A stretch of DNA of 64,000 bases from Pseudomonadota bacterium (GTDB lineage: Bacteria > Desulfobacterota > Desulfovibrionia > Desulfovibrionales > Desulfomicrobiaceae). Shown in pieces: positions 4,653 to 48,384 of this stretch (position 1 is the first letter of the stretch; each line of letters begins with the position of its first letter). The position numbers and the translations under genes are program-made. Under the pieces are notes generated by a model, which saw nothing but the letters and a program-made list of their open reading frames with translations, did not search any database and had not been told where the DNA came from. Location of the stretch: contig JAHIQM010000002.1 in the NCBI GenBank assembly GCA_018902545.1, forward strand, positions 124,001 to 188,000, read 5' to 3'.

Positions 4653-4742
4653 TCTTCAATGTTCTCTCTTGGCAGCCGCGAATAATTGTGATATTTGGCA
4701 CAAAGTCTTAGTTCGCCAATAAACCCTTGTAGGAGGAATACT

Positions 4743-5663
4743 ATGTCCGTTTATGTTTTTGGTCACAAGAATCCCGATTCCGATACCGTTTGCAGCGCCA
4801 TTGCGCTGGCCGATCTGAAGAGCAAGCTCGGCGTAGCCTGCACCGCCACCGCGCAGGGCGAGCTGCCCCCCGAGACCAAGTTCATCCTTGAGAAGTTCGG
4901 TGTTGCCGCTCCCGCCGTGAAGACCGATTTCGCCGGTGAAAAAGTTTTCCTGGTCGATACCTCCGACCTGGCTCAGCTGCCCGAGGACATCAAGCAGGCT
5001 GAAGTGCTCGGCATCGTCGACCACCACAAGCTGGGCGACCTGACCACCTCCACCCCCCTGGAATGCTGGATCTGGCCCGTTGGCTGTACCTCTACGGTCA
5101 TCACCGCCATGTACAAGTTCCATGGCATTGAAATTCCCAAGAACATCGCCGGCATCATGCTGTGCGCCATCCTGAGCGACACCGTCATCTTCAAGTCCCC
5201 GACCTGCACCCCGGCCGACAAGGAAGCCGCTGCCGAACTGGGCAAGATCGTCGGCATCGCCGACCTGGCCGCTCTGGGCATGGAAATGTTCAAGGTCAAG
5301 TCCGCCGTTGAAGGCACCCCGGCCCGCGAGCTGGTTCTGCGCGACTACAAGGACTTCAACATGAACGGCACCAAGGTTGGCATCGGCCAGCTGGAAGTTG
5401 TCGATCTGTCCATCCTCGACGCCGTCAAGGGCGACCTGGCCGCCGACATCGTCGCGCTGAAGGCCGAGAAGGGCAATCACTCCGTGTTCCTGCTGCTGAC
5501 CGACATCATGAAGGAAGGCTCCGAGATCCTCATCGCCTCCGACGACGCCTCCGTTGTCGAGAAGGCCTTCGGCGTCAAGCCCGTAGACGGAAAGGCATGG
5601 CTGCCCAAGGTCATGTCCCGCAAAAAGGACGTTGTGCCCAAGTTCGAAAAGGCTTTCGCCTAA
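4743..5663 (+). CDS. ppaC: Manganese-dependent (family II) inorganic pyrophosphatase
   Basis: A 306-residue cytosolic DHH-family phosphatase that hydrolyses PPi to 2 Pi and so pulls biosynthetic reactions and sulfate activation forward. The metal ligands are visible: GHKNPDSDTVCSA near the N terminus, VDTSD, and the DHH motif VDHHK. The C-terminal DHHA2 domain ends with SRKKDVVPKFEKAF. The length equals the simple form without CBS/DRTGG inserts. The start is the ATG at 4743 behind AGGAGGA; the frame is open to 4695 but that would add unrelated residues. It has its own strong terminator. Family II PPases are usual in Desulfovibrionales. Confidence 0.96.
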   Translation: MSVYVFGHKNPDSDTVCSAIALADLKSKLGVACTATAQGELPPETKFILEKFGVAAPAVKTDFAGEKVFLVDTSDLAQLPEDIKQAEVLGIVDHHKLGDLTTSTPLECWIWPVGCTSTVITAMYKFHGIEIPKNIAGIMLCAILSDTVIFKSPTCTPADKEAAAELGKIVGIADLAALGMEMFKVKSAVEGTPARELVLRDYKDFNMNGTKVGIGQLEVVDLSILDAVKGDLAADIVALKAEKGNHSVFLLLTDIMKEGSEILIASDDASVVEKAFGVKPVDGKAWLPKVMSRKKDVVPKFEKAFA

Positions 5664-5766: not shown

Positions 5767-5946
5767 GGGGTGGGGCGGTTGTCCCGGACAGGGGCCGCCG
5801 ACTGTCTGACTGAGTGTGGCATCGTTTGTTGAATCATCGCGTGCCGCCTGAAAAACCGGAGTATGGTCGGCAGGGGCGATGATTCAACTCTACGAGGCCT
5901 GCGAAGGAGTTTCGGCGGCCCCTGTCCGGGACAACCGCCACGCCCC
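5767..5946. repeat. Long hairpin element, copy 1 (inverted orientation)
   Basis: A 180-bp hyphenated inverted repeat in the gap between ppaC and the next gene. The outer arms are 28-bp perfect complements (5774-5801 and 5912-5939); the inner arms GTTGAATCATCGC (5828-5840) and GCGATGATTCAAC (5876-5888) also match perfectly. Between them lie two unpaired conserved strands. Read on the minus strand these are AACTCCTTCGC-N-GGCCTCGTA on one side and AACAAACGATGC followed by CTCAGTCAGACAG on the other. The same internal motifs occur at 8281-8460 and 45870-46042 with different outer stems. The function is unknown; it could be a mobile hairpin element or a structured RNA. Confidence 0.85.
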
Positions 5947-7089: not shown

Positions 7090-8091
7090 TCAGCAGATGC
7101 GCGGCAACTGTTCGCCTTCAAGCATGTCCATGAGTCGGGTGCCGCCCAGAGGCGTTTCGAGCACGACTTTGCCGGGGTGTTCGCCCCGCACCTCACCGAT
7201 CTGCACCGCGTCCGCGCCGAGCGGGTCGGAGCGCATGATGGCCAGGGCCGCCTCGGCGTGCTCCTGGGGCAGGATGCAGATGAACTTGCCCTCGTTGGCC
7301 AGGTACAGGGGATCGAGCCCCAGGAAGGAGCAGCCGCCGGTGACTTCGGGACGGACCGGGATTTTCGACTCGAAAATCCGGCATTCCACGCCCGACTGGC
7401 CGGCGATTTCGTTCAAAGTCGTGGCCAGACCGCCCCGGGTGGGATCGCGCAGCACATGCACGGACGGGATGGCTTCAAGCAGCCGCACGATGAGATGGTT
7501 GAGGGACGCGCAGTCCGAAAGCACGGGGGCCTCGAAGGTCAGGCCTTCGCGCTTGGAGAGGATGGCCAGGCCATGATCGCCCATGAAGCCGCTGATCAGG
7601 ATGGCGTCACCGGGGGCGGCCCGGCGTCCGCTGGGCGCCTCGTCCACAAAAATTTCGCCTATCCCGGTGGTGTTGATGAAGATTTTGTCCACCGCGCCCT
7701 TGGGCACGACCTTGGTGTCGCCGGTGACCACCAGCACTCCGGCCTCGCGGGCGGCATTGCCCATGGACTGAACGATGCGCTCCAGGTCGGCCATGGGCAG
7801 GCCTTCTTCGAGGATGAACCCGCAGGTCAGGTACCGGGGGCGCGCGCCGAGCATGGCCACGTCATTGACCGTGCCGTGCACAGCCAGGGACCCGATGTCG
7901 CCGCCGGGAAAAAAGATGGGGTCCACGGTGAACGTGTCGGTGCTCACGGAAATGGGGCCCTTGATCTCAAGGAAAGCTGCGTCATCAAGACGGTCGAGGA
8001 TTTCGTTGCCCAGATATTTGAGAAAAAGCTCGCCGATGAGCCGATGCGAAGCCTTGCCGCCGCTGCCGTAATCAAGAAGAACCCTTTCCAC
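7090..8091 (-). CDS. hypE: Hydrogenase maturation protein HypE (carbamoyl dehydratase)
   Basis: A 333-residue PurM-like enzyme. It converts the carbamoyl group placed on its C-terminal Cys by HypF into thiocyanate, the source of the CN ligands of NiFe hydrogenase. Family signatures are LLDYGSGGKAS at the N terminus, TVNDVAMLGARP, RDPTRGG and the C-terminal PRIC with the acceptor Cys. The start is the GTG at 8091 behind AAGGGGGA. The frame stays open about 100 codons further only by reading hairpin copy 2, which is not coding. hypC and hypD lie upstream on the same strand but are separated by 1 kb of repeats, so hypE may need its own promoter. Confidence 0.95.
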   Translation of the reverse strand: MERVLLDYGSGGKASHRLIGELFLKYLGNEILDRLDDAAFLEIKGPISVSTDTFTVDPIFFPGGDIGSLAVHGTVNDVAMLGARPRYLTCGFILEEGLPMADLERIVQSMGNAAREAGVLVVTGDTKVVPKGAVDKIFINTTGIGEIFVDEAPSGRRAAPGDAILISGFMGDHGLAILSKREGLTFEAPVLSDCASLNHLIVRLLEAIPSVHVLRDPTRGGLATTLNEIAGQSGVECRIFESKIPVRPEVTGGCSFLGLDPLYLANEGKFICILPQEHAEAALAIMRSDPLGADAVQIGEVRGEHPGKVVLETPLGGTRLMDMLEGEQLPRIC

Positions 8092-8280
8092 TCGCTTCCC
8101 CCTTGCGTGACACCTTTGTAACCAACTGATCCGAATAGAAAAACAACTAATTAATCGAGACTCAAAATATGCGGCACGCGGCTCGTTGTCGACAAGGTCC
8201 TCGGCCCCGTAGCAAAAGACCGAGTCATCCCGCGTTGACGGGGCATTCATCGTTTTTTGAAGTTTCGACATGTGCGGCAC

Positions 8281-8460
8281 GCGGCCCATTGTCGGCATGG
8301 CCCACGGCCCCGCCGGAACTCCTTCGCTGGCCTCGTAGAGTTGAATCGTTGCGTGACAGGCGGCAAACCCGCGCCGCACGCCAGGCAACGATTCAACAAA
8401 CGATGCTCTGGCTCAGTCAAACAGCCGACGAGGCCGTGGGCCATGCCGACAACGAGCCTT
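8281..8460. repeat. Long hairpin element, copy 2
   Basis: A 180-bp inverted repeat. Outer arms 8289-8316 and 8425-8452 are complementary with two transitions; inner arms GTTGAATCGTTG (8340-8351) and CAACGATTCAAC (8386-8397) are perfect. The internal loop carries AACTCCTTCGCTGGCCTCGT on the left and AACAAACGATGCTC then TGGCTCAGTCAAACAG on the right, as in copies 1 and 3. A diverged extra copy of the left arm precedes it at about 8168-8215 (GCGGCACGCGGC shared). The outer stem sequence is unrelated to those of copies 1 and 3. No protein gene is supported across it. Confidence 0.85.
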
Positions 8461-8498
8461 GAGGGACTGGCGGGTGTACTTTTCCGCTTCGCGCCAAG

Positions 8499-8575
8499 TC
8501 ATCCCCTTGAAGAAGGGGATCCATGCCTTTTAAGCACTTGAAAAAGCATAGATTCCCGCCTGCGCGGGAATGACA
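8499..8575. repeat. Pair of REP-like palindromes
   Basis: Two short hairpins 30 bp apart: ATCCCCTT-gaag-AAGGGGAT (8501-8520) and ATTCCCGC-ctgc-GCGGGAAT (8552-8571), the second in the context AGATTCCCGC...GCGGGAATGAC. This resembles common bacterial intergenic REP/BIME-type repeats. They lie between hairpin copy 2 and the 132-bp tandem repeats in the hypE-hypD gap. Confidence 0.75.
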
Positions 8576-8605
8576 CTCAGGTTCTTTCGCGACTTTTTTG
8601 CAGTG

Positions 8606-9091
8606 GCCGTTTTTGGAGGGCGACGTGTAGCCGACTACATGAGTCCTTCAAAATCGGCGAGCAACGCAGCCCAGAACTCCCTTAAAATTCGGCAAAATCC
8701 CCAGAGACCGTCGAAAATTGATTCTGGCAAGGCGCGAGCCGTTTTTGGAGGGCGATGTGTAGCCGACTACATGAGCCCTTCAAAATCGGCGAGCAACGCA
8801 GTCCAGAACTCCCTTAAAATTCGGCAAAATCCCCAGAGACCGTCGAAAATTGATTCTGGCAAGGCGCGAGCCGTTTTTGGAGGGCGATGTGTAGCCGACT
8901 ACATGAGTCCTCCAAAAACGGGGAGCAACGCAGTCCAGAACTCCCTTAAAATTCGGCAAAATCCCCAGAGACCGTCGAAAATTGATTCTGGCAAGGCGCG
9001 AGCCGTTTTTGGAGGGCGATGTGTAGCCGACTACATGAGTCCTTCAAAATCGGCGAGCAACGCAGTCCAGAATCAATTTGCGGCGGTCTCT
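8606..9091. repeat. 132-bp tandem repeat array, 3.5 copies, with inverted end
   Basis: Unit starts (GCCGTTTTTGGAGGGCGA) fall at 8606, 8738, 8870 and 9002, exactly 132 bp apart; the last copy stops at 9072. Copies differ by only a few bases. Each unit begins with a hairpin, clearest in unit 3: CCGTTTTTGGAGG pairing with CCTCCAAAAACGG around TGTAG-ccga-CTACA. The array ends with 9067-9091, an imperfect reverse complement of the unit segment 8967-8991 (AGAGACCGTCG...GATTCTGG). As 132 is divisible by 3, one frame reads 44-residue repeats, but nothing else supports coding. The array reaches to within 2 bp of the hypD stop codon. Confidence 0.9.
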
Positions 9092-9092
9092 C

Positions 9093-10175
9093 CTAGATTC
9101 TGTATTTGTAGTAGGCCGCACACGACCCTTCGGTGGAAACCATGCACGGTCCCACCGGGGAGGCGGGGGTGCAGGCTTTGCCGAACAGCGGGCACTTCTC
9201 CGGCGACATCTTGCCCTTGAGCACGTCGCCGCAGCGACAGCCCTTGATTTCCGGGACATCGCGCAGTTCCATGCCGAAAACGCGCATGGCATCATAGGCC
9301 GCATACTCGTCGCGGATGGTCAGGCCACTGCCGGGGATGAGGCCGATGCCTCGCCACAATGCGTCGCAGGGCGAAAAAACCTCGTTCATGACCGAGACGG
9401 CCTTGGGGTTGCCGCCGTCGGACACCACGCGGGTGTAGGCGTTGACGACCTCGATCTTGCCTTCGTTTCGCATGGTCACAAACATGTACAGGGCCTGCAG
9501 GATGTCCACGGGCTCGAACCCGGCCACCACTGCGGGCAGGCCGTACTTGGAAGCCAGGAAACGATAGGGCTCGACGCCGATGATGGCCGAAACATGGCCG
9601 GGCAGCAGAAAAGCCTGGACCTGCAGCTCCGGATCCGCCACCAGAGCGTCCAGGGCCGGGGGGACGAGCTTGTGGAAGCAGAGTACGGAAAAATTGGTTA
9701 TGCCCTGCTCGCGGGCCACCTTGACCGTGGCCGCGATGGCCGGGGCCGTGGTCTCAAAGCCCACGCCCAGAAACACGATCTTGTCGCCGGGGTTGTCCTG
9801 GGCGATCTTCAGGGCGTCGAAGGGGGAATAGACGACCTTGACGCGGGCCCCTTCGGCCTGAGCGCTCTTTAAAGTCTTCTTTTCCGGGCCGGGCACGCGC
9901 ATCAGGTCCCCGAAAGTGGCGATGATGGCATTCTTATCGGCCAGTTCGAGGAAAGCGGCCACTTCGCTGTCATGGGTCACGCAGACCGGGCAGCCGGGGC
10001 CGGAGAGGTGCACGACCTTGTCGGAGAGCAGGGAGCGCACCCCGCTGCGAAAAATGGAAACCGTATGCGTTCCGCACACTTCCATGAATCTGAGTTCCCC
10101 GTCCAGCTCGGCGTGGATGCGATCAAGCAAGGTCTTGCACAGCTGGGGGTCCTTGAAATTGTCAAACAAGTTCAA
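9093..10175 (-). CDS. hypD: Hydrogenase formation protein HypD
   Basis: A 360-residue iron-sulfur scaffold protein on which, with HypC, the Fe(CN)2CO group of NiFe hydrogenase is built. The conserved CGTHT motif is near residue 33, followed by GPGCPVCVT. The C-terminal [4Fe-4S] cysteines lie in KGCRCGDVLKG, SPEKCPLFGKACTP and the final GPCMVS/GSCAAYY region. The start MNLFDNFKDP overlaps the hypC end by 14 nt, so the two are probably translationally coupled, as expected of partners that form a complex. The array of 132-bp repeats begins right after its stop. Confidence 0.96.
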   Translation of the reverse strand: MNLFDNFKDPQLCKTLLDRIHAELDGELRFMEVCGTHTVSIFRSGVRSLLSDKVVHLSGPGCPVCVTHDSEVAAFLELADKNAIIATFGDLMRVPGPEKKTLKSAQAEGARVKVVYSPFDALKIAQDNPGDKIVFLGVGFETTAPAIAATVKVAREQGITNFSVLCFHKLVPPALDALVADPELQVQAFLLPGHVSAIIGVEPYRFLASKYGLPAVVAGFEPVDILQALYMFVTMRNEGKIEVVNAYTRVVSDGGNPKAVSVMNEVFSPCDALWRGIGLIPGSGLTIRDEYAAYDAMRVFGMELRDVPEIKGCRCGDVLKGKMSPEKCPLFGKACTPASPVGPCMVSTEGSCAAYYKYRI

Positions 10176-45764: not shown

Positions 45765-45869
45765 CGGGCACAATACTTTCGTGCCGCAGGCGGAAGGCGC
45801 CTGTCGGCCCGGCTCGGGCAAGGCCTGCCGGGACACATCTTTTTCGTGCCGGTGCCCGATGCGAAGGAC

Positions 45870-46042
45870 GCGTATCGGCGCGACTCGGAAAGGGCCTGCC
45901 GGAACTCCTTCGCCGGCCTCGTAATGTTTCCCGGCCTTGAGGATCGTGCCATGGGCGCCCTGTGCGGAAGACGGCCGGGAAACAAACGATTCCTGGCTCA
46001 GTCAGACAACCGACAGGCCCTTTCCGAGTCGCGCCGACACGC
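45870..46042. repeat. Long hairpin element, copy 3
   Basis: A 173-bp inverted repeat in the 418-bp gap 45765-46182. Outer arms of 33 bp (45870-45902 and 46010-46042) pair with two mismatches; inner arms GTTTCCCGGCC (45926-45936) and GGCCGGGAAAC (45973-45983) pair perfectly. The internal loop has AACTCCTTCGCCGGCCTCGT and AACAAACGATTC...GGCTCAGTCAGACAA, as in copies 1 and 2. A diverged left-arm duplicate lies at about 45785-45835. The stems differ in sequence from the other two copies. Confidence 0.85.
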
Positions 46043-46118
46043 TTGAGCCCATGCGGGAATGTTGTTGAAGATGCCTTGCCAACTCCCGCATGCGAACTTG
46101 GGGAGACAACGCTATCAA

Positions 46119-46185
46119 TTACCCCCCATACGCGGGGTGCAGGGGACGCGTCCCCTGCCCGCCGGAGGCATCTTCTCTCCCCCTA
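46119..46185. repeat. GC-palindrome repeat, copy 2, containing the ftsK stop codon
   Basis: It holds a perfect 20-bp palindrome GCAGGGGACGCGTCCCCTGC (46139-46158), preceded by CCCCCCATACGCGGGG and followed by TCTTCTCTCCCCCTA, whose CTA is the ftsK TAG on the minus strand. The layout matches 38263-38332. It may act in transcription termination or messenger stability. Confidence 0.75.
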
Positions 46186-48384
46186 ATCCTTCTTACCGCG
46201 CACCAGGCGGGGCTTGCTGCCGTCCTGGGGGCCGATGATCCCGTCCATTTCCATTTGCTCGATGAAGCGGGCGGCGCGGTTGAAGCCGATGCGCAGGCGG
46301 CGCTGGATCATGGAGATGGAGGCGCGGCCTTGGTCGGTGACGAAATCGATGGCCTCGGCGTATTTGGGATCGTCGAGGACGTCGCTGGCCCCGCCTCCCC
46401 CTTCGCCGCCGTTCTCGCCCGCGGTGTTCCACTCCGCAAAATCGAGTTCAAAGCGCTGCGGGCGCTGTTTTTCCCAGTATTCGACCACGCGGGCGATCTC
46501 GTCGTCGCCGACAAAGGCGCCGTGCACGCGCTGTATGTTGCCACCGCTGAGCTTGAAGAGCATGTCGCCGTGGCCAAGGAGGTATTCTGCGCCGATGCCG
46601 TCGAGGATGGTCCGCGAGTCGTGCTTGGAGCTGACCTGAAAGGCGATGCGCGAGGGAAAGTTGGCCTTGATGATGCCCGTGACCACGTCAACGGACGGCC
46701 GCTGCGTGGCCAGGATGAGATGGATGCCCGAGGCGCGGGCCAGCTGGGCCAGACGCACGATGCTGCCTTCCACTTCCTTGGCCGCGGTCATCATCATGTC
46801 GGCCAGTTCGTCGACCACGATGATGAGATAGGGGAAGGGTTTCAGGTCGCGCATGTCCTCGGGCCGGTCATCGCCCATTTCGGCCAGCTTCTGGTTGTAG
46901 GTGGTGATGTGGCGCACGCCGGTGCGGGCCATGGCCTCGTAGCGCTGTTCCATCTCGTAGACGGCCCATTCCAGGGCGTTCTTGGCCAGATGCATGTCCG
47001 TGACCACGGGGTGGACCAGATGCGGGAGCGAGCCGTAGACAGCCAGCTCGATGCGCTTGGGGTCCACCAGCAGGAGCTTCACCTGCTCGGGGCCATGCTT
47101 GTAGATGATGCTCAGGAGCAGGCAGTTGAGGCACACGGACTTGCCGGCGCCGGTAGCTCCGGCCACGAGCATGTGCGGCATCCTGGCCAGGTCCGCGATC
47201 TTGGGAACGCCCTGGATGTCCATACCCAGGGCCAGGGGCAGCTGGGCCTTGGTGTCGGCGAAGGCCGGGGCGTCGAGAATTTCGCGCAGGTAGACGATCT
47301 GACGCTGGTCATTGGGAATCTCGATGCCCACGGTGTCGCGCCCGGGCAAGGGCGCCACGATGCGCACGGCCCGGGCTTTGAGGGCCAGGGCCAGGTCGTC
47401 GCTCATATTGGCGATGCGGCTGACCTTGACGCCGGGGGCGGGCTTGAATTCGAACATGGTGATGACCGGTCCGGGCTGCACACCCTGCACCTCGCCCTGG
47501 ATGCCGAAATCCGAGAAGCAGGACGTGAGCGCCTGGGACTGCTTGTCGAGCACGGTCTTGGAGATCGAAATACGCGAAGCCGGCACCGGGGCCAGAAGCT
47601 CGATGGGCGGCAGGCTGTTGCCGGATCCCGCGGGCCGGACGGGAGGCGCGGTTTTGACAGTTTTTGGCTGCGCGGCCTTGGGCACCGCCCTGGGCTCTTC
47701 CCGGCGTGTGTCCTCGGCCGGGGGGCGCGGCCGGGCGAGAGTCCGTGGCGGTTGGCCGGACGCGGAGGGCGCGGTCTTTTCGGGCCTGTTCTGCCGCCAG
47801 GCGACAAGGCGCTGAAGCATCTCACGCAACGGCGCGAGCCACAGCGTGCATTTTTCCATCAGGGCGCGGTACGAGATGCCAAACAGAAGGCGGCCGCCAA
47901 TGAGGGTCAGGCAAACGGCCACGAGCACGAATCCGTAATTGCCGAAAATCCGCTGCAGCAGGGCGTACAGGCTCCGCCCGATAAACCCTCCGCTGGCCAT
48001 GCCGGTTCCGGGCAACCCCAGGTGCAGGGCCCCGAAATGGACCCAGATCGGGAGCAGGACCGCGAGCAGGATGCCACCGACCCAGCGCAGCCAGGACGGC
48101 CTGAACGCAGGGAAAAAAAGCATCGTTGCGGCCAGGGCGAAGAAAACGGGCCAAAGCCAGGCCGCAGCTCCGCACAGGTCGACCAACCCCCCGGCTACGT
48201 AGGCACCCAGGGTACCAACGAGATTCTGGGTCTTGTGTCCGGCCACGGCCTGGTGGTTGAACCCGGGATCTGCGGGGGAGAAGGAGAACAGGGCCAGGGT
48301 CACCAGCGCCAGGGAGCAGGCAAAGACCAGCGCGCAAATTTCCCGAACGAGTTTGTTGCCGTCTTTAGTCATGCGTTTTTCCAT
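46183..48384 (-). CDS. ftsK: DNA translocase FtsK
   Basis: A 733-residue septal DNA pump that segregates and helps resolve chromosome termini. Four N-terminal membrane helices (for example ICALVFACSLALVTLALF, AWLWPVFFALAATMLFF) occupy about residues 15-165. A Pro/Ala-rich linker follows, then the motor with Walker A GATGAGKSVCLN, LLLVDPKRIELAVY and Walker B LIIVVDELADMMM. The C-terminal gamma winged helix (MIQRRLRIGFNRAARFIEQM) reads oriented KOPS sites. The linker is short. No ribosome site is clear; ATG 48372 is an alternative start. The gene ends inside a GC-palindrome repeat. Confidence 0.96.
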   Translation of the reverse strand: MEKRMTKDGNKLVREICALVFACSLALVTLALFSFSPADPGFNHQAVAGHKTQNLVGTLGAYVAGGLVDLCGAAAWLWPVFFALAATMLFFPAFRPSWLRWVGGILLAVLLPIWVHFGALHLGLPGTGMASGGFIGRSLYALLQRIFGNYGFVLVAVCLTLIGGRLLFGISYRALMEKCTLWLAPLREMLQRLVAWRQNRPEKTAPSASGQPPRTLARPRPPAEDTRREEPRAVPKAAQPKTVKTAPPVRPAGSGNSLPPIELLAPVPASRISISKTVLDKQSQALTSCFSDFGIQGEVQGVQPGPVITMFEFKPAPGVKVSRIANMSDDLALALKARAVRIVAPLPGRDTVGIEIPNDQRQIVYLREILDAPAFADTKAQLPLALGMDIQGVPKIADLARMPHMLVAGATGAGKSVCLNCLLLSIIYKHGPEQVKLLLVDPKRIELAVYGSLPHLVHPVVTDMHLAKNALEWAVYEMEQRYEAMARTGVRHITTYNQKLAEMGDDRPEDMRDLKPFPYLIIVVDELADMMMTAAKEVEGSIVRLAQLARASGIHLILATQRPSVDVVTGIIKANFPSRIAFQVSSKHDSRTILDGIGAEYLLGHGDMLFKLSGGNIQRVHGAFVGDDEIARVVEYWEKQRPQRFELDFAEWNTAGENGGEGGGGASDVLDDPKYAEAIDFVTDQGRASISMIQRRLRIGFNRAARFIEQMEMDGIIGPQDGSKPRLVRGKKD

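Follow-up and report, generated by a model that had tools for sequence, protein, structure and literature searches.

Dispersed, covarying hairpins with a conserved tandem G.A core in Desulfomicrobiaceae and related genomes: candidate structured-RNA elements

Three hairpins with similar internal sequences and dissimilar outer stems lie in intergenic gaps of a 64-kb stretch of a Desulfomicrobiaceae genome (the window, below), and they raise the question of whether such elements are maintained as structured RNA or as mobile DNA. We located all three, within a few bases of the coordinates given in the earlier note that described them, and refer to them as elements A, B, and C (Table 1). Within the window we count exactly three copies of the loop box AACTCCTTCGCNGGCCTCGTA, and 100 dinucleotide shuffles gave none. 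The fold of window positions 8270 to 8470, which contain element B, the subject of this report, has an energy of −131.9 kcal/mol (z = −9.65), and none of 200 shuffles folded equally well. Element B has as neighbors hypD (9093-10175, minus strand) and a hypE-like gene (within the ORF at 7090-8388, minus strand), assigned by Pfam HypD and AIRS matches; element A is located 3′ of a DHH/DHHA2 gene (4695-5663, plus strand) and that gene's terminator, with the next gene convergent; and element C is downstream of ftsK (46183-48384, minus strand).

Table 1. Positions of the three elements and their parts in the 64-kb window
Feature	Position	Strand	Remarks
Element B, whole	8283..8458	-	RNA on minus strand; coordinates, covariance-model match, fold
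Element B, 5′ outer arm of RNA	8425..8458	-	34 nt
Element B, conserved strand 1	8400..8424	-	CUGUUUGACUGAGCCAGAGCAUCGU: two GA steps, GCC, UCGU
Element B, inner covarying stem and variable terminal loop	8337..8399	-	
Element B, conserved strand 2	8317..8336	-	ACGAGGCCAGCGAAGGAGUU
Element B, 3′ outer arm	8283..8316	-	34 nt
Element A, whole	5768..5945	+	RNA on plus strand
Element A, conserved strand 1	5802..5825	+	
Element A, conserved strand 2	5892..5911	+	
Element C, whole	45869..46043	-	RNA on minus strand
Element C, conserved strand 1	45986..46009	-	
Element C, conserved strand 2	45903..45922	-	

Other repeats share these gaps. The hypD-hypE spacing is several hundred bases in the window (8121-9093), filled by element B and other repeats; it is short in genomes G122 and G188. 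Intergenic repeats of the GTCATCCCCGCGAAGGCGGGGATCCA type occupy the same gaps as the element in many copies (window ∼8510-8620; loci L017 and L064), and a second repeat, GGGGTGCAGGGGACGCGTCCCCTGCCCGCC, recurs close to copies (window ∼46120-46142; L009 and L016). A RAYT-like Y1 gene (G000:C18:8822-9145) is found beside two copies and a GGGGTGCAGGGGACGCGTCCCCTGCCCGCC repeat.

The hairpin, ∼175 to 200 bases in size and intergenic, is present ∼50 times in the 3.7-Mb genome (G000): we found 48 box matches at ≤3 mismatches (0 for a reversed-pattern control) and 50 matches to a covariance model built from 43 copies, whose sequences count among the 50. A search of related Desulfovibrionales, as the earlier note had proposed, yielded further copies: 42 and 53 in the complete genomes G169 (43 matches, one being an antisense overlap) and G137, 75 in G045, 78 in G207, and 1 to 17 in others, with Desulfonatronum-like genomes reaching 78. 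Genomes with copies include Desulfomicrobium, Desulfonatronum, and one Solidesulfovibrio metagenome-assembled genome. Under strict filters, 23 of 297 genomes and 7 of 53 genera in a class-level sample had matches; four sampled genomes from the same genus as G000 had none, so the element looks dispensable. Among 395 genomes of a phylum-level sample, only G000 matched, and plasmid, phage, and IMG/VR collections gave no match. The hairpin had not been recognized as a named family, and no Rfam family matched: Rfam 15 at gathering threshold gave no matches in the window, and a relaxed search of six loci gave one tRNA and otherwise only subthreshold matches. Our literature search found no description of this hairpin family, its core, or its double orientation bias; multicopy covarying stems of unknown role are already known as a broad kind.

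Read on the RNA strand, the element consists of an outer stem of 30 to 36 bp, conserved strand 1 (consensus CUGUCUGACUGAGCCAGGCAUCGU), an inner stem of 13 to 15 bp with a variable loop, and conserved strand 2 (consensus ACGAGGCCNGCGAAGGAGUU). The conserved strands were originally thought to be unpaired; instead, they form an ordered core with short conserved helices (TCGT/ACGA and GGC/GCC) and two tandem G.A motifs. Core positions 19.115, 20.114, 23.111, and 24.110 are G.A or A.G in 43, 42, 43, and 43 of 43 sequences, respectively, and one of the two pairs between the motifs covaries, U-A (n = 31) versus C-G (n = 8). The core is a double tandem G.A arrangement, in which the G.A pairs are probably sheared. 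We considered a kink-turn, which the G.A arrangement fits in part, but make no such assignment, because the standard three-nucleotide bulge and C-stem could not be written.

Pairing in the element covaries beyond both shuffled and slid controls, the check that the earlier note had called for. Both sides changed in 25 of 36 pairs, 95.1% of cells were paired (76.2% when shuffled), and the covariation score was 0.560, versus 0.192 for shuffled and 0.09 to 0.16 (maximum, 0.159) for slid versions; in an RNAalifold structure predicted separately on the same alignment, 23 of 32 pairs were double changed. The description of the outer stems as complementary within each copy but unrelated between copies holds for its first part only: several subfamilies share arms, which are thus not simply copy specific. 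The outer arms carry little sequence information, and at the base of the stem none is left. We also observed direct tandem pairs of elements ∼177 to 350 bp apart, with arms common to each pair (L011, L021, L030, L058, L006, and others).

Which strand is constrained can be read from the imperfect pairs. For 60 copies whose outer stem is ≥25 bp, we examined the outer 30 pairs; in the orientation first described, non-Watson-Crick cells comprised 114 A.C and 10 G.T, and on the complement these 114 are G.U. Counted per element, 47 lean this way and 2 the opposite way, and copies from a second genus, the Desulfonatronum-like genomes, repeat the G.U asymmetry (28 versus 6). Thus, constraint falls on the reverse complement of the strand described in the earlier note, and the orientation originally assigned to the RNA was wrong. 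Strand-specific replication mutation bias (C to T, G-rich leading strand) would be expected to give the opposite sign; part of the asymmetry could come from sense-strand deamination coupled to transcription.

Copies are placed in the sense orientation with respect to genes, which were called by codon-usage score and left uncurated. The upstream gene, in RNA orientation, is codirectional in 39 of 46 copies; in codirectional gaps of the 20-kb data set, 15 copies are sense and 1 is antisense (P = 5e-4), or 13 and 1 with tandem pairs collapsed (P = 0.002). Gaps with copies are convergent in 24 cases and divergent in 5, versus 40 and 62 among background gaps (P = 4e-5). We rejected a riboswitch or leader RNA, which calls for a consistent 5′ position ahead of codirectional genes with related functions, because 24 of 45 copies with called neighbors lie between convergent genes. 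We also rejected an intrinsic terminator: the 3′ flank profile has no T-run, and there is no terminator conservation around copies. Several copies, including element A, have an intrinsic terminator between the upstream gene and the element, so their transcription would need read-through.

Elements A, B, and C, and one element on contig C7, occupy the same site in four to six species, with nearly unchanged loops. Orthologous arms differ yet stay complementary; that is, arms change in place. Among the compared genomes we found no clean empty site, the copies being old and shared, the sites rearranged, or a deletion scar present, nor did we see target duplications at the compared sites. Decayed copies with weak or broken structure exist beside intact ones (the L066 upstream flank; G000:C19:72273-72403; and, beside the C7 element, in G197, G208, and G160), so not every copy is constrained.

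To the explanation that best accommodates these observations we assign about an even chance: a family of dispersed structured-RNA elements in 3′ or intercistronic transcripts, an old repeat selected as RNA. The earlier suggestion of a structured RNA is supported by the covariation, the one-strand G.U, the near-invariant G.A core, the lack of an Rfam match, and the copies in relatives, though its strand was the wrong one, and its alternative, a mobile hairpin with homogenized arms, remains as a rival. The upstream gene's transcript would include the copy, either toward its 3′ end or between cistrons, and the copy folds into a ∼200-nt rod composed of the 30- to 36-bp outer stem, the G.A core with its two short conserved helices, and the inner stem with its variable loop. 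Selection would act on the transcribed RNA; the core may be a protein-binding or tertiary-contact module, and the stem may block 3′ exonucleases or mark the transcript boundary between neighboring, often convergent, genes. A mobile origin is likely, given copy number and patchiness, although we found no conserved ends, target duplications, or consistent partner enzyme, and the copies may stem from past, now slow, duplication or transposition.

The element is also oriented with respect to replication. Its RNA strand is the lagging strand in 81 to 88% of copies in three genomes that are not independent, sharing many orthologous copies: 40 of 47 in G000, by local 20-kb skew (32 of 39 with tandem pairs collapsed, P = 7e-5), 37 of 42 in G169, and 43 of 53 in G137. 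In G169, GC skew flips sign near 1.65 and 3.5 Mb, with the 16S gene on the plus strand in a region of positive skew. The strand distribution of genes does not account for this bias, since the lagging strand carries just 55% of them. Of the three window copies, two (B and C) have the minority orientation. In 39 of 46 copies, the RNA-sense strand is more stable as a DNA hairpin than its complement, with a mean difference of 4.7 kcal/mol, and G169 has lost one minority-orientation copy through a deletion joined at a GTGGC direct repeat, of which one unit falls within the arm and its partner outside the element, as is typical of palindrome slippage. On the structured-RNA reading, copies with the stabler strand on the lagging-strand template may have been preferentially lost via hairpin slippage, giving rise to the bias; the evidence for this survival account is one deletion scar and a modest stability difference.

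The family might instead be a nonautonomous DNA element (MITE- or REP-like) whose single-stranded hairpin is moved by a Y1/HUH transposase on the lagging-strand template, in the style of IS200/IS605 or RAYT, an explanation that we consider unlikely. High and patchy copy number would fit, as would the strength of the bias, which is consistent with the targeting of the lagging-strand template by IS608 and ISDra2 stated in PMC6006769; moreover, G000 has Y1 genes, one of them ∼600 bp from two copies. However, the internal loops are conserved and the ends are not: the conserved terminal inverted repeats of a MITE are absent, the arms being subfamily specific. We also saw neither a target duplication nor a clean empty site in the compared genomes, and the strand that tolerates G.T is the complement of the lagging-strand template, not the template itself. 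Finally, Y1_Tnp was unmatched in the element-rich drafts G188 and G207, and it was matched in G126, where the element was not.

Quite unlikely, in our judgment, is that arm complementarity comes mainly from templated repair, i.e., replication template switching between the arms, rather than from RNA selection. Pairwise cells at orthologous sites include 106 Watson-Crick swaps (61 transversional and 45 transitional), 103 changes with G.U, and 98 with a mismatch. That the swaps are transversional at least as often as transitional favors repair, as does element C, whose arm in G169 and G137 differs from that in G000 by clustered double changes that leave almost every pair intact; yet intermediates with a mismatch or G.U are found as often as double changes. 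Orthologous arm change could come either from selection that maintains pairing while tolerating intermediates or from templated repair between the arms, but homogenization alone is insufficient, because it leaves the 114:10 G.U asymmetry and the conserved loops unexplained.

As a long shot, the elements could be a replication-oriented RNA/DNA system, in which sense hairpins behind genes transcribed against the fork would limit transcription-replication conflict, with a dedicated protein on the G.A core; they might, for example, block R-loops or read-through, or pause forks. We regard as very unlikely a retro-mobile (SINE-like) RNA copied to DNA by a reverse transcriptase recognizing the internal core. 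An enzyme that recognized the RNA internally would account for loops that are conserved while the ends are free to vary, and some RNA-templated insertions show orientation biases by gene and by replication; against this, orthologous copies are old and turnover is slow, and a search confined to RVT_1 (PF00078) among reverse transcriptase families found no match in G000, G122, G160, G169, or G188, all element rich, and so no sign there of a retron, group II intron, or other RVT_1-encoding element. Independent small-RNA genes with their own promoters, ∼50 paralogues per genome, would fit the strong fold and covariation but are extremely improbable, since sequences 5′ of the stem are not conserved among 46 copies, which leaves no promoter outside the stem for them to share.

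Among known systems, the MRSC-65-2 motif (a mobile/repeat sequence candidate; PMC11109978) resembles the element in its long covarying stem, its dozens of copies per genome, and a function and RNA or DNA level of action that are unresolved; it is described as one long stem that bears a conserved UYCCGG repeat and occurs in diverse phyla, whereas the element has a conserved internal tandem G.A core and both gene-sense and replication-strand bias, and was found only in genomes of the class Desulfovibrionia. The BOX, RUP, and SPRITE repeats of pneumococcus (PMC3049150) are likewise small and interspersed, with folded RNA, slow current mobility, and expected effects on cotranscribed genes, but BOX and RUP end in inverted repeats and are flanked by target duplications (PMC3049150), while the element's ends vary and its internal core alone is fixed. 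Like bacterial intrinsic terminators, the element is a strong hairpin 3′ of genes in the sense orientation; unlike them, it has no U-tract, its stem is 30 bp or longer, its internal core is conserved, and several copies follow a separate terminator. REPs are short palindromes of conserved sequence that are tied to a RAYT. The element shares with REP/BIME/REPIN sequences and their RAYTs (PMC3116915) the character of a many-copy intergenic palindrome in a genome with Y1 genes, but has no consistent Y1 association.

Dispersed bacterial repeats are commonly read as DNA parasites with conserved ends. This family has variable ends and a fixed internal core; each copy retains its own pairing at orthologous sites, and its orientation tracks both transcription and replication. 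It is therefore a clean natural data set for weighing RNA-level selection against template-switch repair of palindromes, and it raises the question of why fork direction should matter to a structured RNA, one that ∼50 copies per Desulfomicrobium genome make experimentally tractable.
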